Part shown: piece by piece, positions 6,492 to 55,572 of the stretch
How the letters are laid out: the number at the start of each line of letters is the position of its first letter
How positions within the stretch are numbered: position 1 is the first letter of the stretch
Origin: an uncultured Bacteroidales bacterium
GTDB taxonomy: Bacteria > Bacteroidota > Bacteroidia > Bacteroidales > Paludibacteraceae
Assembly: GCA_902784585.1 (NCBI GenBank)
Contig: CACZVM010000005.1
Span: 16,065 to 80,064, forward strand
Direction of reading: 5' to 3'
DNA length: 64,000 nucleotides
Notes under the pieces: model-generated
Told to the model about the DNA's origin: nothing
Database searches by the model: none
What the model saw: the letters and a program-made list of their open reading frames with translations, nothing else
Made by a program: the position numbers and the translations under genes

Positions 6492-7574
6492 ATGGCAAGA
6501 ACAGAAATAGCAACGATGGGTGAGTTCGGGCTGATCAAGCACCTCACCAAAGACATACAACCTGTGCAGCCGAGCACGAAGAAAGCTGTCGGTGACGACT
6601 GCGCGGTGATGGACTTTAGTCCAATTCACAATTCACAATTCACAATGCACAATGCATCGGATGTCCGGGTGCTCATGACCACCGATATGCTGCTGGAGGG
6701 AATACATTTCAACCTGGAGTACGTACCGCTTAAGCACCTCGGTTACAAAGCCGCGGTGGTCAATTTCTCGGATATCTATGCGATGAACGGCACGCCGACG
6801 CAGATCACCGTGTCGCTGGGTATCAGCCGTCGTTTCTCGGTGGAAGACATCGAAGCATTGTACAGCGGTATACGCCTTGCTTGTGAGAAATACGGCGTGG
6901 ATATAGTGGGTGGCGACACCTGTGCTTCGATGACCGGACTGACCATCTCCATCACTTGTTTGGGCGTGGCGGCAGAGAAAGACATCGTCTATCGCAACGG
7001 GGCGAAACTCAACGACCTGATCTGCGTCAGCGGTAATCTTGGCACCGCCTACATGGGCCTGCAACTGCTCGAACGCGAGAAGCTGGTGGCACAGGCGGAT
7101 GAGAAGGCACAACTTCAGTTTGAAGGCAAGGAGTACCTGCTGGAGCGCCAACTCAAACCCGAAGCACGGCGTGACATTCTCGAATCGTTACGTAAGGCCG
7201 GTGTGAAGCCGACGGCGATGATGGATGTGAGCGATGGACTCTCGTCCGAACTGTTGCATATCTGTAGCCAATCGAACGTAGGATGCTGTATCTACGAGGA
7301 CAAGCTGCCTATCGACTACCAGGCGGCGGCACTGGCCGAGGAGATGAACCTCAACATCGTCACATGCGCGCTCAACGGCGGCGAGGACTACGAGCTGCTC
7401 TTTACATGTTCGCTGGACGACTATGAGAAACTGATTCCGATAGACGATCTCTATATCATCGGACACATCACCAAACCCGAGCACGGATGTAACCTCATCG
7501 GTCGCAACGGCGAAGAGATAACCCTAAAAGCACAAGGCTGGAACGCGTTTTCGCGTTCGGCAACAAAGTCGTGA
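6492..7574 (+). CDS. thiL: Thiamine-monophosphate kinase ThiL
   Basis: ThiL phosphorylates thiamine monophosphate with ATP to make thiamine diphosphate. The 360-residue product shows the PurM/ThiL fold signatures: GDDCAVMD (metal-binding loop), TTDMLLEGIHF, VVGGDTC, MDVSDGLSSEL and GGEDYELLFTC. It is about 15 residues longer than usual. The extra piece NSQFTMHNASD lies just after GDDCAVMDFS and is encoded by a heptamer array at 6623-6657. The start MARTEIATMGEFGLIKHL is shared with the broken copy at 5157. It heads a rightward gene row with kdsC, ispD and kdsD. Assignment is firm. Confidence 0.95.
   Translation: MARTEIATMGEFGLIKHLTKDIQPVQPSTKKAVGDDCAVMDFSPIHNSQFTMHNASDVRVLMTTDMLLEGIHFNLEYVPLKHLGYKAAVVNFSDIYAMNGTPTQITVSLGISRRFSVEDIEALYSGIRLACEKYGVDIVGGDTCASMTGLTISITCLGVAAEKDIVYRNGAKLNDLICVSGNLGTAYMGLQLLEREKLVAQADEKAQLQFEGKEYLLERQLKPEARRDILESLRKAGVKPTAMMDVSDGLSSELLHICSQSNVGCCIYEDKLPIDYQAAALAEEMNLNIVTCALNGGEDYELLFTCSLDDYEKLIPIDDLYIIGHITKPEHGCNLIGRNGEEITLKAQGWNAFSRSATKS
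6623..6657 (+). repeat. Heptamer array (AATTCAC)n inside thiL
   Basis: Five 7-nt units: aattcac three times, aatgcac, aatgcat. It lies in frame within the coding sequence, in a loop between two conserved motifs. Confidence 0.9.
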
Positions 7575-7694
7575 TGTCGATACCGCTCCGCTAAATCGAC
7601 GGGACGATTTGTGCCTCCGCTCTCCCCACCACAAACACTCCGTTGGTTTGCGTCGGGGGCCCCAATAATTGAACAAAAATCGAACAAAGAAATA

Positions 7695-8189
7695 ATGAAT
7701 ATTAGATTGTTTTTAACGGACGTCGATGGCTGCCTTACGGACGGAGGCATGTACTATACCGCCGAAGGCGACGTGATGAAGCGTTTCTGTGTTTACGACG
7801 GTATGGGGATGGTCTTGCTTCGCAAGGCCGGTATTGCCTGCGGTATCCTGACAAGCGAGAACTCGCCTATCGTCAAGGCACGCGCGGAGAAACTCCATCT
7901 GGACTACCTCTATATGGGTGTTGGCAGTCCTGATCGTCAGGGTACCTTGACCAAACTGGATGCGGCTAAGCGTATCTGCGACAAGATGGGTATTACGCTC
8001 GCGGAAGTGTGCTACGTAGGCGACGATGTGAATGATATCGACTTGCTCATGGCCGTCGGCCTTCCTTGTTGCCCGCCTAATGCGCGACCCGAAGTGAAAG
8101 CAGTGCCGGGCATCCGTGTGTTGAAGACACCCGGAGGACAAGGGACTGTGAGAGAAATCGCTGATGCGATTCTCACAAGTTTGAAGTAG
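7695..8189 (+). CDS. kdsC: Kdo-8-phosphate phosphatase KdsC
   Basis: KdsC removes phosphate from 3-deoxy-manno-octulosonate 8-phosphate to give free Kdo for lipid A core synthesis. The 164-residue product is a C0-type HAD phosphatase: DVDGCLTDGG near the N-terminus (nucleophile and acid Asp), TSENS as motif II and GDDVNDIDL as the Mg-binding motif IV. The ATG at 7695 gives the classic start MNIRLFLTDVDG; an in-frame start at 7611 would add 28 non-conserved residues. kdsD two genes downstream supports the Kdo role, although a related YrbI-type sugar phosphatase cannot be fully excluded. Confidence 0.9.
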   Translation: MNIRLFLTDVDGCLTDGGMYYTAEGDVMKRFCVYDGMGMVLLRKAGIACGILTSENSPIVKARAEKLHLDYLYMGVGSPDRQGTLTKLDAAKRICDKMGITLAEVCYVGDDVNDIDLLMAVGLPCCPPNARPEVKAVPGIRVLKTPGGQGTVREIADAILTSLK

Positions 8190-8208
8190 TTTGAAATAGT
8201 TTGAGAGT
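8179..8208 (+). repeat. Period-10 array over the kdsC stop codon
   Basis: Three units gtttgaagta, gtttgaaata, gtttgagagt. The kdsC stop TAG (8187-8189) lies within the first unit. Same family as 5480-5539. Confidence 0.85.
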
Positions 8209-8232
8209 TTGAACATCCAACGATGTTTTGTT

Positions 8233-8937
8233 ATGTATAACATTGCTATCATATTAGCCGGAGGCATCGGCAGCAGAGTGGGAGGGGATACGCCTAAACA
8301 ACTGTTGCTGCTTGATGACGGCCGATCGATCTTGGAGCACTCGGTGGATGCGTTTGACCAGGCACCGTGTATCGATGAGGTGGCTATCGTTATGCATCCT
8401 GAGTGGATGGACGAGGCGAAGACAATCGTGGCACGTAACTGCTGGCAGAAAGTGAAGACAATTATCCCCGGTGGTACTGAACGATGGGAATCGTCCTGGC
8501 ACGCCATAGAGGCATATGCAGGTCAGCCGTCAGACGTCAACCTCTTGCTGCACGATGCAGCACGACCCTTTGTCTCGCAAACCATCATCGCCAACATATG
8601 CAAGGCGTTGGAACAGCATGAAGCCGTGACGGTAGCGGTGCCGTCCACCGATACTTTGTATAGAATTAAAAATGAAAAATTAAAAATTAAAAATGGCGTA
8701 GAGCCGTATCCCATCGTTGAGAGTATTCCGGCGAGGAGGGAGTATATGCGGGCACAAACACCGCAGGCCTTCCGTTTGACCATCATTCGCAAGGCTTTTG
8801 AGAAGGCCTTAGCCCAAGGGAATATCGGCGCGACGGATGATGTGGGTATTGTCCATCGTTATATGCCCGAGACAGCCATTTTTATTGTGCCGGGCGAGGA
8901 GACCAATAAGAAAATAACGTATAAAGGGGATCTTTGA
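8233..8937 (+). CDS. ispD: 2-C-methyl-D-erythritol 4-phosphate cytidylyltransferase IspD
   Basis: IspD transfers CMP to methylerythritol phosphate in the non-mevalonate isoprenoid pathway. The 234-residue protein begins MYNIAIILAGGIGSRVGG with the CTP-binding loop and DTPKQ, and has the family motif HDAARPFV and the AQTPQAFR segment. A heptamer array (8664-8698) encodes an inserted RIKNEKLKIKNG stretch after the PSTDTLY strand. The start at 8233 is preferred to 8209 because it matches the family start. Related TarI-type cytidylyltransferases make ribitol products; the TarI reading is less likely without a TarJ partner. Confidence 0.88.
   Translation: MYNIAIILAGGIGSRVGGDTPKQLLLLDDGRSILEHSVDAFDQAPCIDEVAIVMHPEWMDEAKTIVARNCWQKVKTIIPGGTERWESSWHAIEAYAGQPSDVNLLLHDAARPFVSQTIIANICKALEQHEAVTVAVPSTDTLYRIKNEKLKIKNGVEPYPIVESIPARREYMRAQTPQAFRLTIIRKAFEKALAQGNIGATDDVGIVHRYMPETAIFIVPGEETNKKITYKGDL
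8664..8698 (+). repeat. Heptamer array (AATTAAA)n inside ispD
   Basis: Five 7-nt units: aattaaa, aatgaaa, aattaaa, aattaaa, aatggcg, in frame. The same AT-rich family occurs in kdtA (54215-54242) and in the rRNA leader (63845-63886). Confidence 0.9.
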
Positions 8938-8963
8938 ATGATGCGAATGATGCAAATGATGAA

Positions 8964-9941
8964 ATGATGGAAAAGGAAACAATTATAGCAACGGCGAAGC
9001 AGTGTCTTCGCGATGAGGCTGCAGCGATTGAGTCGCTCATTCCTCGTCTGGATGAGCAGTTTATGCGGGCGGTGGAAGCGATTCGTGACTGCAAAGGTAA
9101 GATCGTCGTGACTGGCGTAGGCAAGTCGGGCCATGTGGGGTCGAAGATTGCCTCTACGTTGGCCAGCATCGGAACACCAGCCTTTTTCCTGAATCCTCTG
9201 GATGCCTATCATGGCGATCTGGGAATGCTGAGTGAAGCCGACGTAGTGCTGGCTATATCCTATTCCGGAGCCACTGAAGAGTTGTTGCGTTTTCTGCCGC
9301 TGATACAAGCGAAGAAGATTACGATCATTGGTATGTCGGGCCATGCCGACAGCCTCTTGGCGCGCTATTCGGACATCCATCTGGATATATCGGTGGAGCG
9401 CGAGGCCGATCCGCTGAACCTTGTGCCGACGGCTTCCACCACGGCTACGCTCGCATTGGGTGATGCACTCGCGAGTGCACTTGTGGAAGCGAAGCGTTTC
9501 CAACCGACAGACTTTGCACGTCTGCATCCGGGAGGTGACTTGGGACGCAAACTGCTCGCGAAAGTGGAGGATGTGATGTTCACCGACAACCTGCCGTTTG
9601 TGACACCGGATATGAAGTTGGCCGAAGCCATCGAGATAGTGACCAATGGAAAACTCGGTGTGGGAATAGTGCTTGAAAACGGTGCGTTAGTCGGTATCAT
9701 CACCGACGGAGACATCCGCCGCGCAATGCTGCGGCTTGGGCAATCTTTCTTCGCCACGCCCGTGGCAGACATCATGTCCCGCAATCCGAAGACGATCAGC
9801 AAGGACGCGAAGATCGTTGACGCCGGCGAGACGATGAATCATTATTCTATTCACTCCCTTGTCGTGCTGAACAACGATGCCAAAGTATGTGGCGTGATAG
9901 ACTCCTTCTCTTGTCTCCCCGGCACACGGTTTTATCATTAG
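8964..9941 (+). CDS. kdsD: Arabinose-5-phosphate isomerase KdsD (KpsF/GutQ family)
   Basis: KdsD interconverts ribulose 5-phosphate and arabinose 5-phosphate, the first step of Kdo synthesis. The 325-residue product has a SIS domain (VVTGVGKSGHVGSKIAS, DAYHGDLGML) followed by two CBS domains (from VEDVMFTDNLPF and from VADIMSRNPKTI), ending GVIDSFSCLPGTRFYH. A TTG overlapping the ispD stop at 8934 opens the frame earlier, but those codons are a short aatgatg repeat. The ATG pair at 8964/8967 gives a family-like MMEKETII start. With kdsC and kdtA it covers most Kdo steps found in the window. Confidence 0.92.
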   Translation: MMEKETIIATAKQCLRDEAAAIESLIPRLDEQFMRAVEAIRDCKGKIVVTGVGKSGHVGSKIASTLASIGTPAFFLNPLDAYHGDLGMLSEADVVLAISYSGATEELLRFLPLIQAKKITIIGMSGHADSLLARYSDIHLDISVEREADPLNLVPTASTTATLALGDALASALVEAKRFQPTDFARLHPGGDLGRKLLAKVEDVMFTDNLPFVTPDMKLAEAIEIVTNGKLGVGIVLENGALVGIITDGDIRRAMLRLGQSFFATPVADIMSRNPKTISKDAKIVDAGETMNHYSIHSLVVLNNDAKVCGVIDSFSCLPGTRFYH

Positions 9942-10246
9942 GAATTCTTAATATGTAACAATCAAGTAATACCTCTGATAATAATTAAGAATAACTAAGA
10001 AGCACTAAGAACAACTAACGCTCAATTTTCGAACACAGCGTTCGAAAGAAATATAAATTTTGACATGACATTATTGACACTTTTGACAGTATCTATCTTT
10101 TTGATAGTGGAGTAACCAGAAGAGAGTGTCATTTTGATACAAAAGGAATAAATTCCGGGCTAAAATTTTACATTATGCAAGAAAGTGTCAAAAATGTCAA
10201 AATTGCCAATGCAAATTTTTAAATGCAAAGAAAAAATTCAGGAGAA
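9942..10246. other. 305-nt AT-rich intergenic region before the polysaccharide cluster
   Basis: No gene. It contains a period-10 array (9981-10020, four units ending in ctaag/ctaac), a perfect 8-bp hairpin TTTCGAAC-ACAGC-GTTCGAAA (10027-10047), four TGACA boxes (10061-10088) and three TGTCA boxes (10127-10199). TTGACACTTTTGACA (10074-10088) and TGTCAAAAATGTCAA (10186-10200) form a 14/15 inverted repeat. I see no clear TAnnTTTG promoter. Confidence 0.7.
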
Positions 10247-12034
10247 ATGCAAGCGATAATTTTAGCAGCGGGTATGGGAAAGCGATTAGGCGAATATACC
10301 CAGAATAATACCAAATGCATGGTGCGTGTCGGTGGCGAGACGCTGATCGAACGTGTATTACACCAATTGGATCAACTTCATTTGAGCCGCATCATTATTG
10401 TTATCGGTTATAAGGGAGCAGAACTACGTGACTATTTGTCACAGGTCTCCGTTCAAACGTCGCTTGTGTTTGTCGAGAATCCGATATACGACAAGACGAA
10501 TAACATCTATTCGCTCTATCTCGCCAAAGATTATATGCGAGAGCAAGATACGCTGCTGTTGGAGTCGGATATTATTATGGAAGACGCGGTACTCAAGAAG
10601 TTAGTACAACATCCGTATCCGGATTTGGCGCTGGTGGATAAGTATGAGAGTTGGATGGATGGTACGGTAGTAACGATTGATGAAGAAAATCGCATTCAAC
10701 GTTTCATCCCGAACAGCCAGTTCCGTTATGAGGAAATACCGGATTATTACAAGACGGTAAATATCTACAAGTTCTCACAGGCATTTTCGGAACACATGTA
10801 TGTGCCATTTCTGGAGGCTTATAGTTCAGCACTTGGAAATAATGAGTATTATGAGCAAGTATTACGCGTCATTACAATGCTGGACAACTCTACCTTGCGC
10901 GCTTTACCTTTAGAGGGAGAACAGTGGTATGAGATAGATGATGTGCAGGATTTAGATATTGCAGAATCCATTTTTACGGACAAGCAGTACGACTTGTTGG
11001 CTTCTCGTTACGGAGGGTATTGGCGTTATCCGCACATGTTGGATTTCTGCTATTTAGTGAATCCATATTTTCCAAATCAGCGTTTACGGGCAGAATTAGC
11101 TGCAAGTTTTGATCGTTTGTTAACGGAGTATCCGTCTGGGCAGCGTATTAACAATCTGTTGGCAGCAAAGGATTTTAGTATTAAGCAAGAGTACGCGATG
11201 GTAGGCAATGGTGCGGCAGAGCTGATTAAGGCGCTTACATCGCAGATGTTAGGTAAGGTAGGTGTCGTACGTCCGACTTTTGAGGAATACCCGAATAGGT
11301 TAATGCCGGAACAAGTGGTGGCTTATACGCCGAGCCGGAAAGATTTTCGTTATACGGTTGATGACTTAATGGACTATTTTGCAGAAAAACAGATTTGGTC
11401 GTTAGTGCTCATCAATCCGGATAACCCTACGGGTAATTATATCTCTTATGCTGACTGTTTGCGTTTGGCAGAATGGTGCCAGCAAAAGGATATAGTGCTT
11501 GTGCTGGATGAGAGTTTTATTGATTTCTCGACCGAACACCCGACATTCCTTTGCAATGAGGTGCTGGAGCGATTTAATCATCTGGTAGTGGTGAAGAGTA
11601 TTTCCAAATCATATGGCGTTCCGGGATTGCGTTTGGGCGTCTTGGCAACATCAAATCAGAGTTTGATGATGAATATCCGCAGAGAAGTAAGTATATGGAA
11701 CATCAACTCGTTCGGTGAGTTTTTCTTGCAGATACTTGGGAAATATGAGAAGGCGTACAAACAAGCGATGGATGCATTCCGCGACGAGCGAGCAAGATTT
11801 GTGAAGGAACTGGGTCAGATATCATGGCTGCGTGTACTTCCGAGTGAAGCGAATTATGTGCTGTGTGAAATAAAAGAGCGTTTCTCTTCACGCGAATTGG
11901 CCGTGCGTTTATTGAAGGATTATAACATTCTCATAAAGGATTGCGCATCAAAATGCAAAGGAAATTACATCCGTCTGGCGGTACGCGATTTGGAAGATAA
12001 TAATAGGCTTGTTTTTGCGTTGAATAGTTTATGA
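10247..12034 (+). CDS. Fusion of LicC-type cytidylyltransferase and HisC/CobD-like PLP enzyme
   Basis: Two enzymes in one 595-residue chain. Residues 1-240 form a nucleotidyltransferase (MQAIILAAGMGKRLGEYTQ, then KCMVRVGGETLIERV) of the LicC/phosphocholine or PntC-like type, which usually makes CDP-alcohols. From about residue 250 a fold-type I PLP domain follows: NPDNPTG (Asn about 390), VLDESFIDF (Asp about 421) and SISKSYGVPGLRLG with the Schiff-base Lys about 454. Close relatives by pattern are histidinol-phosphate aminotransferases and CobD-type decarboxylases. An ATG at 10223 is possible; 10247 follows an AGGAG and gives the family start. Downstream genes suggest the product is a CDP-activated amino-alcohol, but this is inferred. 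Confidence 0.82.
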   Translation: MQAIILAAGMGKRLGEYTQNNTKCMVRVGGETLIERVLHQLDQLHLSRIIIVIGYKGAELRDYLSQVSVQTSLVFVENPIYDKTNNIYSLYLAKDYMREQDTLLLESDIIMEDAVLKKLVQHPYPDLALVDKYESWMDGTVVTIDEENRIQRFIPNSQFRYEEIPDYYKTVNIYKFSQAFSEHMYVPFLEAYSSALGNNEYYEQVLRVITMLDNSTLRALPLEGEQWYEIDDVQDLDIAESIFTDKQYDLLASRYGGYWRYPHMLDFCYLVNPYFPNQRLRAELAASFDRLLTEYPSGQRINNLLAAKDFSIKQEYAMVGNGAAELIKALTSQMLGKVGVVRPTFEEYPNRLMPEQVVAYTPSRKDFRYTVDDLMDYFAEKQIWSLVLINPDNPTGNYISYADCLRLAEWCQQKDIVLVLDESFIDFSTEHPTFLCNEVLERFNHLVVVKSISKSYGVPGLRLGVLATSNQSLMMNIRREVSIWNINSFGEFFLQILGKYEKAYKQAMDAFRDERARFVKELGQISWLRVLPSEANYVLCEIKERFSSRELAVRLLKDYNILIKDCASKCKGNYIRLAVRDLEDNNRLVFALNSL

Positions 12035-12930
12035 AAAGTATCTCGAATCAGCAAATAGTAGATTTAGGTATCTCTCCGCGTGAGTGTGTCGAATGGATAC
12101 GTGAATCATTCCGCATGAAATACGAGGCACAATTACCCACAAAGATTAGTTTGCATCCACAAGGAACGGATTTTATAAATACAATGCCTTGTTTGCTGCC
12201 GGAACGTTTTAATCGTTTTGGCGTAAAGGTAGTCTCGAGAATTGCAGGTCAAAAACCTTCTTTGCACTCGGATTTATTGCTTTACGATTCTAAATCAGGA
12301 GAACTTCTAGCACTTGTGGAAGCCGACTGGATAACGCAGATGCGCACAGGAGCGGTAGCAGCATTGGCTATTGAGACATTACAGAGAAAAAATGCATCAG
12401 TGTATTCTTTTATCGGATTAGGAAGTACGGCGGATGCAACTATGGCTTGTTTACAAGCTATCTTGCCGGAGGAGAAACAGTATACTATTCGACTAAAAAG
12501 ATACAAGAATCAGGCAGAACAATTTGCTGCGAAATGGGCAAAGGAGAATTATAATTTCATTATTGTAGAAACGAATGAGCAGTTATTGGAACACTGTGAT
12601 GTGTTAGTATCAGCAGTAACGGAGATGCCAGACTTATTCTGCGCAGATGATACAAAGTATCCAGAAGGCGTATTGCTTGTGCCGATCCATACACGTGGTT
12701 TCCAAAATTGCGACTTGTTTTTTGATCACATGTTTGCTGATGACAAGGGGCATGTAGAAGGATTTAAATATTTTTCGCAGTTCAAGGCTTTTAATGAGTT
12801 CAGTGAAGTTTTGTTAGGTAAGGCAGCCGGTCGTGAAAATGATAAGCAACGAATAATTGCATATAACATTGGTCTTGGATTGCACGATGTTTTATTCGCA
12901 AGTAAAATTTATGAGCTTGTTAAGGGATAA
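12031..12930 (+). CDS. Ornithine cyclodeaminase/mu-crystallin family dehydrogenase
   Basis: A 299-residue NAD(P)-dependent enzyme of the OCD/mu-crystallin superfamily, overlapping the previous stop by 4 nt. Visible features are VVSRIAGQKPSLHSDLLLYD (substrate domain), DWITQMRTGAVAALA (the conserved TxxRTGA region) and the Rossmann segment YSFIGLGSTADATMACL, where the usual GxGxQA is altered to GLGSTA. Family members include ornithine cyclodeaminase, alanine dehydrogenases, ketimine reductases and SbnB. The exact substrate is not visible. Its place between a PLP/cytidylyltransferase and a phosphotransferase suggests work on an amino precursor or an imine. Confidence 0.82.
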   Translation: MKSISNQQIVDLGISPRECVEWIRESFRMKYEAQLPTKISLHPQGTDFINTMPCLLPERFNRFGVKVVSRIAGQKPSLHSDLLLYDSKSGELLALVEADWITQMRTGAVAALAIETLQRKNASVYSFIGLGSTADATMACLQAILPEEKQYTIRLKRYKNQAEQFAAKWAKENYNFIIVETNEQLLEHCDVLVSAVTEMPDLFCADDTKYPEGVLLVPIHTRGFQNCDLFFDHMFADDKGHVEGFKYFSQFKAFNEFSEVLLGKAAGRENDKQRIIAYNIGLGLHDVLFASKIYELVKG

Positions 12931-14242
12931 AATAAATCAATTTGTAGGTATCTCCTTGTGGGATAGTATCTATAAAGCATTTACTTTCCGTGATTTCTTT
13001 ATCGCGGCATCTTCTAAATGCCTGTTACGCAAAGTGTCTAAGGTGCGTAGCGCGCAAACACGGAAGATAGAACAACTTCACGAGCAAGGCAAAGCGCGTG
13101 TGCTTTTTTTCCTGCAAACGCCTTCTGTCTGGAAGTACGATGCCCTTTATCAAAAGTTAGAGAACTCGGAATATTTTGAACCGCTAATCGTAGTCTCTCC
13201 TTATAACGTTCATCTTAACTATGACACAGAAGAGTGTTTCCGGGTCATGCGTCAAACAGAGGAGTATGCTCATGAGAAGGGCTATAACTATGTGAGCGCG
13301 TATAACTGGGAGAAGAATAAATGGCGGGATATAAAAAAAGAATACCAACCGGATATTGTTTTCTTTACAAAACCCTATAAGGATACGCTGCCCGCGTACC
13401 ATATTTATCATTTTACGGATGCGTTGACGTTGTATGTCCCTTATGGAATCAACTGCATGAATCTCTATCATAATAATTATGAATTACCTTTTCAATCATT
13501 ATTGTGGAAATTGCTATTAGAGACAGATTTTCAGAAACAATATGCAGAGAAGTACGAGAAGTGCCATGGAGACAATGTTGAAATTGTAGGAACATTGGTG
13601 ATGGAGAAATTGATGCAGAAAGAGTATGTGGCAAAAGATGTGTGGAAGCCGCAGGGAAAAAGAAAGAAACGCATCATTTGGGCGCCTCATCATACGGTGG
13701 ACTACTTGTTTAACTTCTCGAATTTCCTGAATTACTGCGAGGATATGCTGAAGTTGGCGGAGAAATATCAAGATGAGATACAGATTGCTTTTAAACCTCA
13801 TCCGGTACTCAAGTTCAAACTCATCAATATATGGGGACAGGAGGAGACGGAAGACTATTATAACCGCTGGGCGAATTTGGCGAACGGACAGATTGAGCAG
13901 GGCGATTATATTGATCTGTTTAAGACTTCGGACGCGATGATTCATGACTCAGGGTCGTTTACGGTGGAGTATCTTTACGCGCAGAAACCGGTGCTATTCC
14001 AAATCCGCGATAATAAAGTAAAGGACGAGTTCAATTCATTTGGGCAGATGTGTCTGGAGCAGCATTACTTGGCTTATTCAATAGAGGAAACGGAAAACTT
14101 CATCCGCGAAGTGGTAATCGCCGGTAATGATCCGAAGAAAGCAGAAAGGGAACAATTCTACAAGCAATATCTCTATCCGAAGGACGGAATTATGCCTTCG
14201 CAGAAGATATACGACATATTGAAAACAACAATAGGAAAATAA
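12911..14242 (+). CDS. CDP-glycerol glycerophosphotransferase-like protein (TagB/TagF family)
   Basis: A 443-residue probable transferase of a CDP-linked alcohol phosphate to a surface glycan. Family signs are IIWAPHHTVDYLFNFSNF, IQIAFKPHPVLKFKLIN, and DAMIHDSGSFTVEYLYAQKPVLF, the conserved HxPH-like and SDxSSxxxE-like regions of TagB/TagF. I take the ATG at 12911 (MSLLRDKINQF), overlapping the OCD gene by 20 nt; the frame opens at 12857. In this operon the donor could be the CDP-alcohol made by the 10247 gene product. Codon use is AT-richer than in the flanking housekeeping genes. Confidence 0.82.
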   Translation: MSLLRDKINQFVGISLWDSIYKAFTFRDFFIAASSKCLLRKVSKVRSAQTRKIEQLHEQGKARVLFFLQTPSVWKYDALYQKLENSEYFEPLIVVSPYNVHLNYDTEECFRVMRQTEEYAHEKGYNYVSAYNWEKNKWRDIKKEYQPDIVFFTKPYKDTLPAYHIYHFTDALTLYVPYGINCMNLYHNNYELPFQSLLWKLLLETDFQKQYAEKYEKCHGDNVEIVGTLVMEKLMQKEYVAKDVWKPQGKRKKRIIWAPHHTVDYLFNFSNFLNYCEDMLKLAEKYQDEIQIAFKPHPVLKFKLINIWGQEETEDYYNRWANLANGQIEQGDYIDLFKTSDAMIHDSGSFTVEYLYAQKPVLFQIRDNKVKDEFNSFGQMCLEQHYLAYSIEETENFIREVVIAGNDPKKAEREQFYKQYLYPKDGIMPSQKIYDILKTTIGK

Positions 14243-14251
14243 TGATAGACT

Positions 14252-19625: not shown

Positions 19626-19626
19626 A

Positions 19627-19953: not shown

Positions 19954-19974
19954 CTATGATTTTTGCTTTTAGAT

Positions 19975-28230: not shown

Positions 28231-28263
28231 TGTCTCGATAATGTCTCGATAGTGTCTCGATAA
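28231..28263 (-). repeat. Period-11 array in front of gldG
   Basis: Three near-perfect 11-nt units (tgtctcgataa, tgtctcgatag, tgtctcgataa) in the 56-nt spacer between the parvulin gene and gldG. The same TCTCG family occurs at 36576-36608 and, as its complement, at 62462-62516. Confidence 0.9.
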
Positions 28264-39820: not shown

Positions 39821-39863
39821 GATTTTTCGAAAAAATTACCTACAATTATATAGAATGCCTATC

Positions 39864-40940: not shown

Positions 40941-40944
40941 AATG

Positions 40945-43476: not shown

Positions 43477-43477
43477 G

Positions 43478-44749: not shown

Positions 44750-44787
44750 AATTGTCTTTCGTTATATCGTTATGACCTTATTACGGA

Positions 44788-46263: not shown

Positions 46264-46297
46264 ATGTTTTGCTTGTGTTGCTTCGGATATGATCCGG

Positions 46298-48402: not shown

Positions 48403-49367
48403 CTCTTCTCTGCTATGCGTAGTTTGGCGCTGCGGCTGCGGGGGTTGCGTGCCACTTCCTCCTCCTCGGCCGTGCGACCTTTCTCTATCAATGTAAACGG
48501 CGACAGGTTGTTGCCGTAGAAATCTTTCTCTATAGTCCCCTCCAGATTGCCGCTGCGCAGAAAGTTCTTCACCAGTCGGTCTTCCAGCGAATGGTAGGTG
48601 AGGATGGCGATACGTCCGCCCGGACGAAGCAGGTCGCGTGCTGCCACCAGCATCTCACGTAGTGCTCCCAGTTCATCGTTCACCTCAATACGCAGGGCTT
48701 GAAACAGGCGCGCCAACTCCTTGCTCATCTCAGCCGGAATACGCGAGGCGGCTACCAGTTCTTCGGTGCGCTCAATCGGCTTTTCTGCTCGTGCCCGACA
48801 TATATTCTTCGCAATGCCGCGCCCGTTCTTCAGCTCTCCGTAGAGCCAGAACAACTGTGCCAGTTCTTCTTCACTATAACTGTTGACGATGTCTGCCGCC
48901 GTACGTTTGGCTGTTTGGTTCATGCGCATGTCCAGTGGGGCGGGATGGCGAAAACTGAAACCTCGTTCAGGACAGTCAAAATGATGAAAACTAACTCCTA
49001 AATCGGCCAGCAGACCGTCTATCTGCGTCACGCCGTAATAGTCCATCCAGTTCTTCAGGTAGCGGAAGTTACTCAGCACAAAGGTCCATCGGTCATCTTC
49101 TATGGCATTCTGCAACGCATCTTTATCTTGATCAAATGAGTACAGATGACCTTCCTCTTCCTTCCTTTTTCCATCCGTCCTTTTTCCTTCTCCCTCGGTC
49201 TTTATTCTCTCTGTCCTTCGTCCTTCCTCCTTCATCCTTTCCAGAATGGCACGACTGTGGCCGCCACCGCCAAAGGTGACATCTACATATACCCCGTTCG
49301 GCTTAATCGCCAAACCTTCAATCGTCTCCTTCAGCATCGCTGGTATGTGATAACTCTCGGTACTCAT
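48399..49367 (-). CDS. rsmH: 16S rRNA m4C1402 methyltransferase RsmH
   Basis: RsmH (MraW) N4-methylates C1402 of 16S rRNA. The 322-residue product has SYHIPAMLKETIEGL, VDVTFGGGGHSRAILERM (SAM loop), DGLLADLGVSFHHFDCPERG, FSFRHPAPLDMRMN and GRIAILTYHSLEDRLVKNFL. Between ILERMKEEG and HLYSFDQDKD lies an extra stretch of about 30 Lys/Glu/Arg residues encoded by a purine-rich repeat (49151-49241), not present in typical family members. It is preceded by a perfect 11-nt tandem array and mraZ. Confidence 0.94.
   Translation of the reverse strand: MSTESYHIPAMLKETIEGLAIKPNGVYVDVTFGGGGHSRAILERMKEEGRRTERIKTEGEGKRTDGKRKEEEGHLYSFDQDKDALQNAIEDDRWTFVLSNFRYLKNWMDYYGVTQIDGLLADLGVSFHHFDCPERGFSFRHPAPLDMRMNQTAKRTAADIVNSYSEEELAQLFWLYGELKNGRGIAKNICRARAEKPIERTEELVAASRIPAEMSKELARLFQALRIEVNDELGALREMLVAARDLLRPGGRIAILTYHSLEDRLVKNFLRSGNLEGTIEKDFYGNNLSPFTLIEKGRTAEEEEVARNPRSRSAKLRIAEKR
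49151..49241 (-). repeat. Purine-rich, partly heptameric repeat inside rsmH
   Basis: On the coding strand AAGGATG, AAGGAGG, AAGGACG, AAGGACA follow each other, then a less regular A/G stretch with further near-7-nt spacing. In frame, about 30 codons. Confidence 0.75.
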
Positions 49368-49380
49368 CCGGACCTGACTG

Positions 49381-49435
49381 TAGTAGGTGATTAGTAGGTG
49401 ATTAGTAGGTTATTAGTAGGTGATTAGTAGGTGAT
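49381..49435 (-). repeat. Period-11 tandem array (tagtaggtgat)5 between mraZ and rsmH
   Basis: Five 11-nt units; four are identical and the third has one change (tagtaggttat). It fills most of the 75-nt spacer between mraZ and rsmH. Confidence 0.95.
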
Positions 49436-49442
49436 TTACCTG

Positions 49443-49898
49443 TCAATCATTTCTCTTTGCCATTTTTGCACGTAGTCTTGCAGCCAACTCTGTTTGGCTC
49501 AGGCGCTTAGCGGCAAAGGTCTCCGGCGCCCAAAGGGCGAAACGGTTGAGCATGCCTACAAAGAGCACGTCTTGTTGCGCACCGATGGTCTCCAGATTTT
49601 TCTTCTGAAGCAAGATACGACCTTGCCCGTCCATCTCCATGTATTCCGCATCGGCCATGAACTGCATCAGGATCAACTGATCTTCCGGATTCCACTCGTC
49701 CAGGGCTGCGCGCAGCGTCTCCACTTTCTCGTTCCATATATGCTCGGGATAGAACATCAGGCACTCGTTGTCTGTGTCACGACGCATGACGATACGCTTG
49801 CTGTCTGCTTCTGCCAATATCTTGCGGTAGGCGGCAGGCACGAAGATACGTCCCTTTTCGTCTAAACGGCCATCGATATTTCCTACAAATGTACTCAT
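49443..49898 (-). CDS. mraZ: Transcriptional regulator MraZ
   Basis: MraZ is a small AbrB-fold DNA-binding protein that controls the division/cell-wall cluster. The 151-residue product contains the two half-repeats: FVGNIDGRLDEKGRIFVPAA with RKIL, and ADAEYMEMDGQGRILLQKKN with LFVGMLNRFALWAP. The start at 49898 (MSTFVGNIDG) matches the family; the frame is open 28 codons further but crosses the promoter at 49949. First gene of the cluster. Confidence 0.95.
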   Translation of the reverse strand: MSTFVGNIDGRLDEKGRIFVPAAYRKILAEADSKRIVMRRDTDNECLMFYPEHIWNEKVETLRAALDEWNPEDQLILMQFMADAEYMEMDGQGRILLQKKNLETIGAQQDVLFVGMLNRFALWAPETFAAKRLSQTELAARLRAKMAKRND

Positions 49899-49948
49899 AA
49901 TTAGTCTGTATTCTGTACGCGGTATGCTGTTTCCCTTAAAATTCGGCG

Positions 49949-49956
49949 CAAAGATA
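49949..49956 (-). promoter_or_regulatory. -7 box of the mraZ promoter
   Basis: Minus-strand TATCTTTG. At the expected distance upstream (about 49977-49980) no TTTG is present; instead there is GTGGTG, part of a possible MraZ-type box, so this promoter may depend on or be blocked by a regulator. Confidence 0.65.
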
Positions 49957-50098
49957 CAAAAAATATTTGAATTACACCACATTTCCCCACAAAAAAAGTT
50001 ATGAATTGTTTTATTAACAGATTGTCAACTACTCTTTGTGTGGTATAATTTGCATAAAATCAAGCAAATATGTGAGTTATTAACATTTTTGCAAAAAG

Positions 50099-50114
50099 TG
50101 GGGTAAAATGGGGG
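50099..50114 (+). promoter_or_regulatory. TGGGG-N5-TGGGG direct repeat, possible MraZ box
   Basis: TGGGG (50099-50103), TAAAA, TGGGGG (50109-50114): the 10-nt period known for MraZ operators. It lies on the strand opposite to mraZ, about 150 nt upstream of its -7 box. A weaker pair (TGGGGAAATGTGGTG) on the mraZ strand lies at about 49977-49991. Confidence 0.45.
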
Positions 50115-50142
50115 TATTTGTTTTCTGTCCTTGCGAAGGAGC

Positions 50143-50174
50143 AAAAAAATGCCCCGCACCGGGTGGTGCAGGGC
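50143..50174 (-). terminator. Terminator of the hisS-DUF1599-DoxX group
   Basis: A GC-rich stem (GCCCTGCACC with GGTGCGGGGC around ACCC) followed on the minus strand by seven T. Confidence 0.88.
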
Positions 50175-50203
50175 TTCTGTGAAACTACTTCAGCAGATGG
50201 TTT

Positions 50204-51319
50204 TTACTTCAACTGCCTGAAGTTCTGCTTGTCGATGATGGTGCCGTTCTGAATGACGAACAATCCGGGGTTGGCGCGTACAATGGTCTTGAGTGTTACG
50301 GGGTCGATGGTGCAGAACACACTCATCATCGTCTCCTCGTCCCAACCCAGTTCTTCTGCGAAGGCGTAGATGTCATCGTCGCCGCTACCGGTCAAGAAAT
50401 ACACGTTCGGGTGCTCATGGATGATAGCCATTAGTTTGTCCATCTGCTTGCGGTCGGTCTTTTTCAGGTCGTACATCGCTACCAGATATACGGGTTCTTC
50501 GCTCTCCAAAATATCGCTCGTGATGTCTTCATATTCCATCGTTAGGATCTCGAAGTCATGGATGGGCGCTTCATACCCTTTCTTGACAAGCACCGAGCGT
50601 TGGTCGACGAAGGTCCAGTCGGGGTCACCCTTCGGGTAGTTTTCTAACGTGAACTCTTGCTCAACACCATCTTTCTGGTAGATGAGCGTCGTTTCGTACA
50701 CATCCGGTTCAGCATCTTCGGGCACCTCCATCAGTTCAGGGATGTTATTGCCTATCTTATACGGACGGAAGTCCATGGGAGGAAGGTGCAGATAGCTATA
50801 TCCCATCATGCCAAGCGAGAAAGCAACACCCAGCAGAGCGATCACGAGATCCATCCACCAGGAGAAGAGGGGAGGAATAGTGCGACATGAGCATAGAAGT
50901 ACCACGCTCAGGCCCAGCAACACGATGTTCTTCCAGAACGTCTGCCAGTTAGTCAGCACCAGCGCATCACCGAAGCAACCGCAGTCGCTCACGGGGTTGG
51001 TCAGTGCTATCCAGAGAGTGAGCGGCGTCATGATGAGATAGAAGATCAAGGTCAACCAACTCGTCCAACGTGTGCGTACGTTGAGTAGCATACATAGACC
51101 CAGCACCAACTCTGTCGTGATGAGCAGGATGGCGGCGGCTGTGGCCAGCGGCAGCAAGTCGGTGAACCAACCTCCGAAGGCCTTCAGGTAGTCTTCTATC
51201 TTATATACGGTGCCTAACGGGTCCACCGCTTTGACAAAACCGGAGAACAAGAAGGTCAATGCCAACAACGTACGGGCGATTGAGCCGGTTATATGTAGTG
51301 CTGTCTTATTCGTTTGCAT
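50204..51319 (-). CDS. DoxX/BT_3928-like membrane protein
   Basis: A 371-residue protein. The N-terminal half is a four-helix DoxX-like membrane unit (ARTLLALTFLFSGFVKAVDP, then AAAILLITTELVLGLCMLLN) with the paired-Cys loop NPVSDCGCFGDALVLTNWQ typical of MauE/DoxX proteins that handle thiols. The C-terminal half is soluble and may be thioredoxin-like (PVYLVAMYDLKKTDRKQMDK, NVYFLTGSGDDDIYAFAEEL), but a CxxC motif is not seen. Bacteroidota members are known only by names such as BT_3928 family. Start overlaps the DUF1599 gene by 14 nt. Confidence 0.8.
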   Translation of the reverse strand: MQTNKTALHITGSIARTLLALTFLFSGFVKAVDPLGTVYKIEDYLKAFGGWFTDLLPLATAAAILLITTELVLGLCMLLNVRTRWTSWLTLIFYLIMTPLTLWIALTNPVSDCGCFGDALVLTNWQTFWKNIVLLGLSVVLLCSCRTIPPLFSWWMDLVIALLGVAFSLGMMGYSYLHLPPMDFRPYKIGNNIPELMEVPEDAEPDVYETTLIYQKDGVEQEFTLENYPKGDPDWTFVDQRSVLVKKGYEAPIHDFEILTMEYEDITSDILESEEPVYLVAMYDLKKTDRKQMDKLMAIIHEHPNVYFLTGSGDDDIYAFAEELGWDEETMMSVFCTIDPVTLKTIVRANPGLFVIQNGTIIDKQNFRQLK

Positions 51320-51845
51320 AGTGAATCAGATCAAATATAGCGTAGTTGATGATGTCGAAATAATTGCCTTCCACGCCTTCGGACGCGATGGTCTTGCCGT
51401 CGTGGTCAAGGATGGTCTTGATGCGAATGATCTTAGCCAATATCATATCGACGATGCCTTCTTTCGACATCTCGCGCCAAGCCTCGCCGTAGTCGTGATT
51501 CTTGCGCACCATCAGTTCTTTGGCCTCGTTGAGCACTTTGTCGTATTGCTTGGCCGCTTCGTCGTTGCTCATGTCAATGGCGTCGGCATAACCGAGGCGC
51601 GACTGGATGATGGCGGTGATGCCGTAGTTGATGATCGCACGCAGGTTTCCCTCGATGTCATCGCCTACCAGACTCACACCGGTCTCTTGCCGTTGACGGA
51701 TGTTGCACACCTTGATATAGAGCTGGTCGGTGATGCCATGCAGACGGAAGATACGCCATGACGCTCCGTAGTCACTCATCTTGTCCATGAAGATCATGCG
51801 ACATTTTGCCGTCACCTCATCAAATTGTTTGTTTGTATCAGCCAT
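51306..51845 (-). CDS. DUF1599 protein
   Basis: A 179-residue soluble protein with two related halves, each with a CRMIFMDKMSDYGASWRIFR / AKELMVRKNHDYGEAWREMS pattern (K-x-x-DYG-x-x-WR) and NLRAIINYGI / NYFDIINYAI. This duplication is the mark of DUF1599, a family restricted mostly to Bacteroidota; function not known. The shape recalls all-alpha MazG/dUTPase-like nucleotide-handling folds, but that is speculation. It sits between hisS and the DoxX-like gene. Confidence 0.85.
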   Translation of the reverse strand: MADTNKQFDEVTAKCRMIFMDKMSDYGASWRIFRLHGITDQLYIKVCNIRQRQETGVSLVGDDIEGNLRAIINYGITAIIQSRLGYADAIDMSNDEAAKQYDKVLNEAKELMVRKNHDYGEAWREMSKEGIVDMILAKIIRIKTILDHDGKTIASEGVEGNYFDIINYAIFDLIHYANE

Positions 51846-51857
51846 AGAAATGAATTC

Positions 51858-53171
51858 TTATTTTTTTATTTCCTGCAGAAGTTCGTCTTTCGAGACTAAC
51901 TTTTGCTCTCCGGTGCTCATCTCCTTGAGCATCACTTTCTGCTGCGCCATCTCATCGCCGCCAACGATGGCTACGTAGGGTATCTGTTTGGCGTCAGCGT
52001 AGCCCATCTGCTTCTTCATCTTCGTCGATTCGGGATAAACCTCCACGGCGATGCCATGTTGGCGGAGCTGCTTGGCCCATCCTAAGGCGTAGGTCTGTTC
52101 TGCTTCACCAAAGGTGGCGAAGAGCACTTGGGTGCTGGACTGCAATGCGGCAGGGAAGAGGTTCAGTTCCGTCAATACGTCGTATATACGATCCGCACCG
52201 AAGGAGATACCTACGCCCGACACATCCGGCATGCCGAAGATACCCGTCAGGTTGTCGTAGCGTCCGCCGCCCGTGATGCTGCCTATCTGCGCATCCAGTG
52301 CTTTTACTTCGAAGATAGCACCGGTGTAGTAGTTCAGTCCGCGGGCAAGGCAGAGGTCCAGTTCTATATTCAGTTCCACGCCTGTAGCCTCTATCATGCT
52401 AAACAGCGTTTCCAACTCCTCCACACCTTTCATGCCGGTCTCGCTTGAGGCAAGAATAGTACGAAGGCTGGTGAGTTTGTCTGCTGTCGTACCGCTGAGG
52501 TTGAGGATGGGCTGCAGTGCCATAACGGCTTCTTCGCTTAGTCCGCGTTCCTTCAGTTCGGCGTTGACGGCTTCCAGGCCTATCTTGTCCAGCTTGTCGA
52601 TGGCGACGGTGATATCGATGATCTTGTCGGGAGCACCGATCACCTCGGCAATGCCGGCAAGTACCTTGCGGTTGTTCAGGTGCAGACAGACGCGGATACC
52701 CAGACGGCGATAGACCTCCTCCACGATCTGGATGAGTTCGAGTTCTCCTACAAGACTATTACTTCCAATCACATCCACATCGCACTGATAGAACTCGCGG
52801 TAACGTCCTTTCTGCGGACGGTCGGCACGCCAGACGGGTTGGATCTGGAATCGTTTGAAGGGAAAACTGATCTCCTCGCGGTGCTGCACCACGTAGCGGG
52901 CAAAAGGAACCGTAAGGTCGTAACGCAACCCCTTCTCGGGAGCCAGCGCAGCTTTCTCACCGCTATTCTGGATGCGGAAGAGCAACTTGTCGCCCTCTTC
53001 GCCGTACTTGCCCATCAAGGTCGATAGGTTCTCCATCGCCGGTGTCTCTATCTGCTGGAAACCATACAGCGCAAAGACACCACGAATAGAGTCGAAGATA
53101 TAATTGCGGCGCGCCATCTCTATCTGTCCGAAGTCACGCGTGCCCTTGGGTATACTGGGTTTTTGTGCCAT
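51858..53171 (-). CDS. hisS: Histidyl-tRNA synthetase
   Basis: Charges tRNA-His. The 437-residue class II enzyme has motif 1 in the [20 protein letters not shown] region, motif 2 in [20 protein letters not shown] with [13 protein letters not shown], and the histidine-specific [14 protein letters not shown]; a C-terminal anticodon domain ([20 protein letters not shown]) follows. It is 1 nt downstream of kdtA and 12 nt before DUF1599. Confidence 0.97.
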
Positions 53172-53172
53172 A

Positions 53173-54420
53173 TTACTTAAAAATCTCGTTGTATATTTTT
53201 TCTGTTGCTCCTAATTCGTTCTCTACGTACGCTGCGGCTTTCTCGCCTATAGCCGTATGGTCATTGAGCGCCTCGTTCATCGCTGTGCACAGTTCTTCGC
53301 CGTTCTTCACGCTGCGTGCCGCACCGGCAGCTATCAGTCCTTCCGCTTCGCGGAAATGGTGGTAATTGGGACCGAACAAGACGGGCATGCCGTAGGCGGC
53401 TGCTTCCACTGTGTTGTGGATTCCTTCGCCGAACCCTCCGCCTATGTATGCTACCTGACCGTAGTGGTATGTGGAGGAGAGCAGACCAATCGTATCCACC
53501 ACCAGCACCTCTGCCCGACGCAGGATGTCCTGCTGACTGGTCTTGGGAATGCACCCGCTGACTGCGCTATAGCTTACGTATCGTCCTTGGAAGAGGTTGA
53601 AGATATAGTGCAGATGGGCTGCGTCTATCTCGTGCGGCACGAGGATGAGTTTTACCGGTAGGTCAGTCTCTTCGTTGAGCTGATTGAGGTAGTGCAGCAG
53701 CAGTTCTTCGTCCTTCGGCCAGGTGCTGCCCGCCACGATCACGCGTTCGCATCCTTCGGCAAACAGCGCCATGGGTAGTAGCCGTTCATTCGTCAATTGG
53801 TTTACCCGTTCCCTTCTCACCTCGGCCATCCGGTCAAAACGGGTGTCACCGGCCACGCTGGCCTGGTGTACACCATGCTCCGTCAGCAGACGAAGTGAGG
53901 CTTCGTCCTGTACGTAGAGATGGGTGAAACAGCGCAACAGACGTAGTTGGCCTTTACCCCACCAGCGGAAGAAATACTGCTGTGGGCGGAAGATGGCTGA
54001 GATACAGTAGGTAGGTATGTCGCGTTTCTTCAGCGCACGAAGATACGCCGGCCAGAACTCATACTTGACGAAGATGGCCATCTGCGGTTGCACTGCCTCC
54101 AGCCACTTGAGGGCGTTGCGACGCGTAGCGAAAGGCAGGAAGAGAACGGCATCGGCCTGGTCGTAGTCCTTGTGCGCCTCGTAACCCGAAGGCGAGAAGA
54201 ACGTGACTACGATCTTTAATTCTTCATTTTTACTTTTTAATTTCTCTATGAGCGGACGTGCCTGTTCGAACTCACCCACCGAGGCGGCATGGATCCACAC
54301 GCACCCTTGGCAGCCGCTCAGGTCGCGCTTGAGGGTTTCGCGTTGCCCACGCACCATCGCACGGGCTTTCTTATGCCCGAATAAAGCTGCGATTCGTATC
54401 AACAAAAAATAAATCCACAT
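53173..54420 (-). CDS. waaA: Kdo transferase WaaA/KdtA
   Basis: KdtA transfers Kdo from CMP-Kdo to lipid A precursor at the inner membrane. The 415-residue protein has an N-terminal membrane anchor ([13 protein letters not shown]), the acceptor-domain motif [20 protein letters not shown] with the catalytic Glu, [20 protein letters not shown], and donor-domain [41 protein letters not shown] heptamer array (54215-54242) encodes part of [16 protein letters not shown]. Its promoter is shared back to back with tsaD. Together with kdsC and kdsD it shows a Kdo-containing LPS. Confidence 0.95.
54215..54242 (-). repeat. Heptamer array (TTTAATT)n inside kdtA
   Basis: Four 7-nt units: tttaatt, cttcatt, tttactt, tttaatt, in frame. 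Same AT-rich family as in ispD and the rRNA leader. Confidence 0.85.
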
Positions 54421-54439
54421 ACTTATCTAAAAACGGGCA

Positions 54440-54471
54440 CAAAATTACAAAATTATTTTGATATGTGCAAA
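54440..54471 (-). promoter_or_regulatory. Promoter of kdtA-hisS group
   Basis: Minus-strand TTTG (54468-54471) and TAATTTTG (54440-54447), spacer 20 nt, sharing the 15-bp core TTTGATATGTGCAAA with the tsaD promoter. Confidence 0.82.
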
Positions 54472-54487
54472 AAAAATAGTACTTTTG
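54457..54487 (+). promoter_or_regulatory. Promoter of tsaD
   Basis: TTTG (54457-54460) and TACTTTTG (54480-54487), spacer 19 nt. Leader of about 11 nt before the ATG at 54505. Confidence 0.85.
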
Positions 54488-54504
54488 CAGCCGATTTTGG
54501 AAAA

Positions 54505-55572
54505 ATGAGTGAGAAACGAGTAGTCATATTAGCTATCGAGTCGAGTTGCGATGATACCTCTGCGGCGGTGATTGTGGACGGCGAGTTGCGCAGCAACGTC
54601 ATTGCATCGCAGAAAGTGCATGAGGAGTTCGGTGGCGTGGTGCCTGAGTTGGCCAGTCGCGCCCATCAGCAGAATATCGTACCCGTGGTGGACACGGCGC
54701 TTAAGCGTGCCGGCGTGACGCAGGCGGACATCTCCGCCATCGCCTTCACCCGCGGTCCTGGTCTGCTGGGATCGTTGCTCGTTGGTACCTCATTTGCTAA
54801 GGGCCTGGCGCTGGCATTGCAAGTGCCGCTGATCGATGTCAACCATCTGCAGGGACATGTGCTGGCACATTTCATTCAGCCCTCAGCAGACAGCAATCAG
54901 CCATCCGACATCCGTCATCCGGAGTTGCCTTTCCTCTGTCTGCTTGTGAGTGGCGGTAACAGCCAGGTCGTGCTGGTACGTGCCTACAACGACATGCAGA
55001 TCATCGGACAGACTATCGACGATGCAGCCGGTGAGGCTTTCGACAAATGTGCGAAAGTGCTGGGTCTTCCTTATCCCGGAGGACCGTGGATCGACAAGTT
55101 GGCCAAGGAGGGCGATGCAGCCAAGTATCCTTTCGCCAAACCCAATATTCCCGGTTACGACTATTCCTTCTCTGGTCTGAAGACTTCGTTCCTCTATACG
55201 CTGCGCGACATGCTCCGTGCGCACGGCGTGGAGACAATAGATGAACTGGCCGAAGTGGTGCCTCATTTGCGCGAAGATATGTGTGCCAGTCTTCAGGCGA
55301 CAGTGGTGGATATACTGATGCGCAAACTGAAAAAGGCCGCGCAGGACTTGGGCATCCGTCATGTGGCGGTAGCCGGTGGCGTGAGTGCCAACAGTGCGCT
55401 GCGTGCAGCTTTTGCCGACTATGGCAAGCGCTACAGTTGGGAGGTCTATGTGCCGCCTTTCTCCTTCACAACAGACAATGCTGCCATGGTATGCCAGGCG
55501 GGTTATTTCAAGTATTTAGACGGCGATTTTTGCGCCATAGATGCCGTGCCATATGCCAAGACGACTATCTGA
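54505..55572 (+). CDS. tsaD: tRNA threonylcarbamoyladenosine transferase TsaD
   Basis: TsaD transfers the threonylcarbamoyl group to A37 of ANN-decoding tRNAs. The 355-residue product has ILAIESSCDDTSAAVIVDGE, PELASRAHQQNIVPVVDTAL, FTRGPGLLGSLLVGTSFAKG, the metal-binding HLQGHVLAH and LLVSGGNSQVVLV, GQTIDDAAGEAFDKCAKVLG and AVAGGVSANSALR. Between HFIQ and PFLCLLVSGG an extra SADSNQPSDIRHPE stretch is encoded by a heptamer array. The start at 54505 follows from the promoter. Confidence 0.96.
   Translation: MSEKRVVILAIESSCDDTSAAVIVDGELRSNVIASQKVHEEFGGVVPELASRAHQQNIVPVVDTALKRAGVTQADISAIAFTRGPGLLGSLLVGTSFAKGLALALQVPLIDVNHLQGHVLAHFIQPSADSNQPSDIRHPELPFLCLLVSGGNSQVVLVRAYNDMQIIGQTIDDAAGEAFDKCAKVLGLPYPGGPWIDKLAKEGDAAKYPFAKPNIPGYDYSFSGLKTSFLYTLRDMLRAHGVETIDELAEVVPHLREDMCASLQATVVDILMRKLKKAAQDLGIRHVAVAGGVSANSALRAAFADYGKRYSWEVYVPPFSFTTDNAAMVCQAGYFKYLDGDFCAIDAVPYAKTTI
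54877..54922 (+). repeat. Heptamer array (CAGCAGA/CCGTCAT)n inside tsaD
   Basis: Six units: cagccct, cagcaga, cagcaat, cagccat, ccgacat, ccgtcat, then ccgg. In frame, in the loop after the HLQGH metal site; related to 37134-37161. Confidence 0.88.

Follow-up and report, generated by a model that had tools for sequence, protein, structure and literature searches.

Heptanucleotide arrays inside conserved enzyme genes of a Paludibacteraceae-like genome and their recurrence in its genus

Arrays in the window

The window, the whole stretch of 64,000 nucleotides analysed here (contig CACZVM010000005.1), comes from an uncultured Bacteroidales bacterium and contains five conserved genes, thiL, ispD, rsmH, kdtA and tsaD, each with a short array of tandem 7-nt units inside its coding sequence. 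The genome comprises 1.63 Mb in 21 contigs (79% complete, 51-52% GC) and is Paludibacteraceae-like, its nearest named relatives being metagenome-assembled genomes (MAGs) of Paludibacteraceae and Bacteroidales, several of them from ruminant guts. The genes and arrays are the following.

6492..7574, + strand: thiL, thiamine-phosphate kinase (TIGR01379, 301.6 bits, cut-off 184)
6622..6656, + strand: thiL array, (AATTCAC)5 with AATGCAC variants, encoding PIHNSQFTMHNA; the nearest relative has a loop shorter by 39 nt
8209..8937, + strand: ispD, 2-C-methyl-D-erythritol 4-phosphate (MEP) cytidylyltransferase, start TTG at 8209 or ATG at 8233 (PF01128, 146.5 bits, above cut-off; TIGR00453, 153 bits, under its cut-off of 181)
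8664..8698, + strand: ispD array, (AATTAAA)4, encoding RIKNEKLKIKN, with AATGAAA at the frame otherwise reading TAA
48399..49367, - strand: rsmH (TIGR00006, 284.8 bits, cut-off 154)
49151..49241, - strand: rsmH array, purine-rich and loose; a short core of heptamers, reading GAAGGAC on the coding strand, occupies 49213-49239
53173..54420, - strand: kdtA/waaA, 3-deoxy-D-manno-octulosonic acid (KDO) transferase (PF04413, 141 bits, cut-off 23.9; NCBIfam equivalogs match below cut-off only)
54215..54243, - strand: kdtA array, degenerate (AATTAAA)4 with AATGAAG at the stop phase; codons replaced, no gain in length
54505..55572, + strand: tsaD (TIGR03723, 386 bits, cut-off 296)
54877..54922, + strand: tsaD array, loose heptamers, CAGCNNN then CCGNCAT by eye
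63845..63890, no strand: noncoding AATT-type heptamer array (period 7/14/21)

Periodicity was measured as lag-7 matches per stretch and compared with 20 shuffles of the 64 kb that preserved the trinucleotide make-up. The matches were 26/28 in thiL, 22/28 in ispD, 29/39 in tsaD, 15/21 in kdtA and 48/84 in rsmH. Equally good windows per shuffled 64 kb numbered 0.00 for thiL, ispD, tsaD and rsmH, whose arrays are confirmed as real, and 0.55 for kdtA, so that this array does not reach significance by itself; read on the coding strand, its unit is AATTAAA, which is among the common words of the genome. The rsmH stretch is low-complexity purine DNA where lag 4 is nearly as high (0.56), and the tsaD array has about 6.5 loose units by eye versus 2.9 called by Tandem Repeats Finder. 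All five arrays are in frame within their genes. The first-pass annotation of the window had reported just this, and it holds for the five genes with the kdtA array compatible with chance when taken by itself and the rsmH array loose. The array at 63845-63890 was absent from that annotation; the sequence after it resembles what we take to be the start of a 16S rRNA gene, with no Rfam match, the Rfam search having returned nothing at the gathering threshold.

Abundance and recurring words

Tandem arrays of period 1-30 with a score of at least 14 were collected from 20 samples of 20 kb of the window genome (400 kb). Of the 81 arrays found, 51 have a period of 7, 9 a period of 14, 3 a period of 21 (two of which, judged by eye, are not made of heptamers) and 7 a period of 11 or 22; periods 7, 14 and 21 together make 63 of the 81. 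No tandem arrays were found in 5 shuffles of the 400 kb, and the enrichment of period 7 over shuffled sequence, proposed at first pass, is therefore genome-wide. Arrays of period 7/14/21 amount to 15.8 per 100 kb in the window genome, versus 3.0 across 20 congeners and 0 across 20 further families of the order. The congeners, sampled with one stretch each, contributed 12 such arrays in 398.5 kb, spread over 7 of the 20, and the other families, also with one stretch each, none in 372.9 kb of lower GC (0.41 versus 0.52 in the window genome). Three exact AATTCAC units were identified in 10 of the 61 genomes of the genus (window genome included) and in 0 of 40 others; three AATCACC units in 24 of the 61 and 1 of the 40. 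In one congener, G071, the reversed control pattern matched 19 times and is thus another common heptamer word. The stretch L126:15635-15734 is a 100-nt higher-order array in which ATTGGTG and ATTGGTA alternate (period 14).

The commonest units among the 51 period-7 arrays are AAGAATT (11), AATCACC (10) and AATTCAC (7), and word-pattern searches with at most one mismatch, overlaps counted, gave 48 and 59 matches in the genome. The tetranucleotide AATT repeats itself at lag 7 (n=179) and lag 14 (n=150), and only 4-19 times at each of the other lags from 4 to 18. Five spacer classes account for 143 of the 179 lag-7 doublets, and the spacers following a single AATT are dispersed, with 2-5% each. 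As to the units, said at first pass to differ between the genes, the idea of separate local inventions was not sustained, the same units recurring across the genome.

The same unit class was shared by 198 of 2191 array pairs within genomes (9.0%) versus 1.9% of pairs between genomes, and, with the window genome excluded, by 4.5% versus 1.4%; neither excess was equalled in 300 permutations, and about 0.2-0.3% is expected from composition only. This comparison comprises 166 arrays in 73 classes, loci fetched through word patterns being excluded, and treats close variants such as AATTAAA and AATTAAG as separate words, which counts against the word exchange proposed below. Each genome is shown to have its own word preferences. 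The flanks of AATTCAC and AATTAAA arrays appear unrelated by eye. Around positions 1501-1540 of L034 and L035 some AATTAAA arrays have ATTACG at one flank, with CGTAAT (L035) or a nearly inverted stretch at the opposite flank.

Arrays in genes and protein loops

Coding calls were made with a home-made, codon-scored model of open reading frames (ORFs), single-base and two-letter repeats being dropped. Among 70 arrays (score at least 12; window and samples), 23 lie inside ORFs with margin, 24 overlap the end of a frame and 23 are outside; an alternative length-greedy model places 22 of 72 inside and 26 partially, and loses ispD to an antisense ORF, neither of the two models having been trained as a gene caller. 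At scores of at least 14, array midpoints number 20 in 419.9 kb of coding DNA (4.8 per 100 kb) and 36 in 44.1 kb of noncoding DNA (82 per 100 kb), a density about 17-fold higher outside genes. By orientation of the neighbours (length-greedy model), the noncoding arrays comprise 26 in 25.1 kb of tandem, 5 in 3.1 kb of convergent and 4 in 8.6 kb of divergent intervals.

Three of the 23 genic arrays are in the window (thiL, ispD and rsmH) and 20 in 18 sample ORFs. Pfam families were matched by all 17 of the sample ORFs scanned (the 18th, L125:17589-18176, was left out of the scan): CinA, SpoU-type methylase, PPDK-like, DUF1015, glutamyl-tRNA synthetase, DapB (two arrays), TrmO, BatD, DNA polymerase I, UvrA (two arrays), Hsp90, pullulanase, GtrA, methyltransferase, cobalamin adenosyltransferase, phosphoesterase and DUF6048. 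The hosts thus include polA, uvrA, gltX, htpG, dapB and cinA. Peptides like TNHQSPI, from AATCACC-type units, were identified in eight sample-ORF proteins, and peptides like NSQFTIH, from AATTCAC-type units, in ThiL, DapB, pullulanase and GtrA. Aligned to solved structures, the GltX array falls in an insertion ahead of the conserved PYRQSE stretch, the PolA array (residues 337-347) between the matches to the exonuclease and the polymerase, in sequence left unaligned, and one UvrA array at a linker position with little change in length.

As 7 and 3 have no common factor, all three frames of a strand translate an array into the same repeating heptapeptide. A stop-free word is consequently acceptable in whichever phase it lies, and it gives the same peptide in unrelated proteins. 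The word AATTAAA is not stop-free. In five coding arrays of this type, AAT in the frame that continues as TAA is followed by the stop in 0 of 8 cases, whereas in the other two phases AAT is followed by the stop letters in 13 of 13. The noncoding background in the samples is 83 AATTAA to 3 AATGAA, a ratio free of the bias of an earlier count (104:3), for which loci had been selected through the AATTAAA pattern. This shows that in these five arrays the change falls precisely on the phase that would do harm. Selection for an intact frame, suggested at first pass, is supported by these altered stop codons and by the open frames of conserved genes. The accompanying claim that unit number alone preserves the frame is contradicted by thiL, whose 39-nt insert equals 5.6 units.

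The loops were also held at first pass to be specific to the lineage, which stands for thiL (21 codons versus 8 in the nearest relative) and ispD (24 versus 12 in several congeners). It stands in part for rsmH, whose loop after GGGGHS has 36 codons versus 12 in many relatives, with long loops lacking heptamers in L177, L182 and L199. It fails for kdtA, where length is kept: the array-bearing loop has 21 codons, array-free ones mostly 20-21 and that of one relative 28. It fails also for tsaD, with 22 codons versus 16 in many relatives but 24-32 repeat-free codons in others; in L207, L215, L218 and L219 the loops have 28-32 codons without periodicity, and such longer aperiodic loops in relatives are what the annotation itself had named as grounds for rejecting a loop made by repeats.

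In a ThiL model (mean predicted local distance difference test score, pLDDT, 77.6; 25 sequences) the array occupies mostly coil residues 41-57, between strands 37-40 and 58-68. It is predicted to lengthen the hairpin turn that separates two conserved motifs, DD and TTD, which serve metal and nucleotide binding in this family.

The ThiL loop was anchored in 79 of the 80 named loci. It is written with AATTCAC in the window genome, AATTAAA in RUG13090 (L252), AAAGTAC in RGIG5163 (L255) and GAAAGTC in RUG12549 (L264), these being the 4 of 42 loops that score at least 8 as heptamer arrays. L254, L275 and L257 have the look of decayed arrays by eye (scores 6, 7 and 3), and the more distant loci L288-L330 have a turn of 8-9 residues in 43 of 43. 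In a ThiL tree built without the loop, the window genome groups with short-loop L251 (98), L252 with short-loop L263 (89) and L255 with short-loop L260 (83), groupings taken from the drawn tree, which leaves 17 of its 38 inner branches open. As array-bearing and short-loop proteins are paired, the state of the loop has changed several times.

The other four loops present the same diversity. The words were AAAGGTG in G030, G015 and G006 and AGCAAGG in G005 for ispD; AATTCAC in G031, AAAGGTG in G030 and AATTAAA in G001 for kdtA; AATTCAC in G002, AAAAGAC in G004, GATTTGA in G006 and a GGAGAAA-type unit in G017 for rsmH; and GCGAAAG in G025 for tsaD. Genomes G030 (L240) and G015 (L246) differ in word at kdtA and at one site near, and outside, thiL. 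With the five loops pooled, 16 of 134 anchored loops score at least 10 (three being the window's own) versus 18 of 2680 control windows, which were placed without restriction in those loci, overlap with the loops being possible; the 134 come from 150 loci, 16 without the anchor motifs having been dropped.

Origin of the arrays and relation to known systems

The explanation that we favour, at about an even chance of being correct, is that the five arrays belong to a population of heptanucleotide arrays scattered over the whole genome, which slippage and word exchange produce and selection on the reading frame filters. Arrays would lengthen and shorten by strand slippage. Short patches would also be copied from one array to another, or to a chance seed at some other place, possibly by microhomology-guided template switching or short-patch gene conversion. 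Such copying would make the vocabulary of a genome more uniform and replace the word at a site that itself stays put, and within genes the survivors would be those whose products are in frame, stop-free and located in tolerant loops. The exchange step is proposed because words are shared within genomes and different words occupy fixed sites. Its extension to the whole genus, where each species would converge on its own vocabulary and dozens of unrelated enzymes would repeatedly receive the same heptapeptides, such as TNHQSPI and NSQFTIH, in their loops, is put forward more tentatively, at somewhat below even chances.

Several points weigh against this explanation. Slippage and exchange are both steps that we infer, from one genome per species. 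The mean differences between units at distances 1-4 are 0.66, 0.76, 0.88 and 0.71, with no clear nearest-neighbour gradient, and stepwise slippage between neighbours is therefore not demonstrated. The recurrence of words could also come from selection for particular words in noncoding DNA. Most congener loops are array-free, 118 of the 134 anchored loops scoring below 10. The ThiL residues ASDVRVL beside the array are common to the window genome, L252 and L261, which do not group in the tree, and part of the pattern may reflect ancestral loops that were later lost, or interspecies recombination. The stop-phase result comes from five hand-picked arrays and is conditional on open genes.

Local replication slippage alone, with chance seeds growing on the spot and recurrence due to AT-rich composition and slippage-prone words, is rather unlikely. 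It agrees with the 9 period-14 arrays, several of alternating heptamers as expected from tandem duplication, with arrays of close relatives that differ by 34 and 35 nt in length, and with the idea, attributed to Mrazek 2007 in the available portions of PMC4679880 and PMC4692102, that a 7-nt unit may match the footprint of the polymerase. It does not account for word identity within genomes so far above the expectation from composition, for AT-rich words in the coding DNA of a genome of such GC content, or for doublets concentrated in five spacer classes whereas single-AATT spacers are dispersed. Loss of mutS does not account for the arrays either, since MutS_I was found in the window genome and most congeners (57 of 61 genomes, 33 of 36 congeners).

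An improbable alternative is that the words are putative binding sites under selection, for a nucleoid protein or a post-transcriptional regulator, with the genic copies as spill-over. The higher density outside genes and the constant AATT part would fit it, as would the regulatory roles that have been put forward, or put to the test, for arrays of TAACTGA and GGGAATC, according to the portions available of PMC4679880 and PMC4692102. However, two congeners differ in word at one shared site outside thiL, and the placement is mixed, being sparsest where promoters are expected.

Insertion by a dedicated mobile system (a reverse transcriptase making short repeats, a transposase of the RAYT type, that is, associated with repetitive extragenic palindromes (REPs), or another) is very improbable. 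Dispersal with unrelated-looking flanks, similar words in unrelated genes and the presence of RVT_1 in array-bearing G015, G030 and G002 speak for it. Against it, RVT_1 was unmatched in the window genome and in array-bearing G034, G003, G006 and G021, Y1_Tnp was unmatched in the window genome, G015, G034, G021 and G006 and weakly matched in G003 and G030, negatives that are weakened by the incompleteness of the genomes; shared ends were not seen by eye, and kdtA gained no length. Neither a reverse-transcriptase (telomerase-like) origin nor one by RAYT/Y1 transposase is supported, and PF01797, the mark of REP/RAYT systems, was unmatched in the window genome (G000, 79% complete). An artefact of metagenome assembly is extremely improbable: the named array-bearing records are MAGs and repeats are error-prone in assembly, but thiL loop arrays with different words occur in RUG and RGIG MAGs and in the window genome, frames are open with stop codons avoided, and genic arrays are only tens of bases long, below the usual read length.

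Heptanucleotide arrays are known among the long simple sequence repeats (LSSRs), whose cyanobacterial counterparts are named STRRs (short tandemly repeated repetitive sequences). Contingency-locus microsatellites, which serve phase variation, are coding tandem repeats with a unit that is not a multiple of three; unlike them, the arrays described here are mostly in housekeeping functions and in open frames. The arrays agree with the LSSR class in being enriched arrays of 5-11 nt units, dispersed at many loci and mainly intergenic. In the available portions of PMC4679880 and PMC4692102, many repeat-rich genomes have heptanucleotide repeats as their commonest class, and heptanucleotide LSSRs, TAACTGA of Beggiatoaceae and GGGAATC of Xanthomonas share with the present arrays a 7-nt unit in few to tens of dispersed copies, a mostly intergenic location, lineage-restricted words and variable length among relatives. 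The present arrays differ from those systems in having several words per genome and different words at orthologous sites, in being AT-rich and not G-quadruplex (G4)-forming, and in stop avoidance and array-made loops in housekeeping enzymes. Their genic share is also higher, 23 of 70 versus 11% intragenic in Xanthomonas campestris in those portions, and the G-rich words GGGAATC and GGGGATT (the G4 heptamers of Xanthomonas and Nostoc) are not among the unit classes listed. In Rickettsia, according to the part available of PMC10969869, repeated DNA is in frame in many genes. The Rickettsia palindromic elements (RPEs) are similar in lying in frame in many unrelated genes with a related peptide across proteins, and differ in being defined families of about 150 bp with a conserved peptide, whereas here only tandem heptamers are present, sometimes with no change in length. 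A longer element of the RPE type with conserved ends was not found, the AATTCAC and AATTAAA flanks being those described above, and a mainly open-access literature search found no account of heptamer arrays in genes of this group.

These arrays constitute a natural, countable system for the entry and survival of non-triplet repeats in coding sequence, in which insertion sites, word identity, phase and stop avoidance are readable from the sequence of dozens of species in one genus. They may explain the origin of some lineage-specific enzyme loops, and species that use different words at one site make it testable why 7 nt is favoured. If word exchange is true, a process at the DNA level would be a steady source of loop diversity in proteins.

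The first-pass annotation had claimed too strongly that the period itself is constant, for arrays of 11 nt (49381-49436 and 28231-28263) and 10 nt also exist. The 11-nt arrays identified in the window and samples, nine in number, are all noncoding. The one at 49381-49436 comprises five near-perfect copies of TAGTAGGTGAT and lies between the start of rsmH and an ORF ending at 49443, presumably mraZ from its position. A 10-nt family, GTTTGAARTA / TTTCAAACCA, recurs at 5477-5537 and 8178-8213 of the window, at L132:15209-15244 and at L123:5052-5094. About 1.3 kb upstream of thiL, the stretch 5157-5249, located at G000:C5:21221-21313 in the genome, matches the first 31 residues of ThiL at 84% and is perhaps a partial duplicate of the start of the gene.

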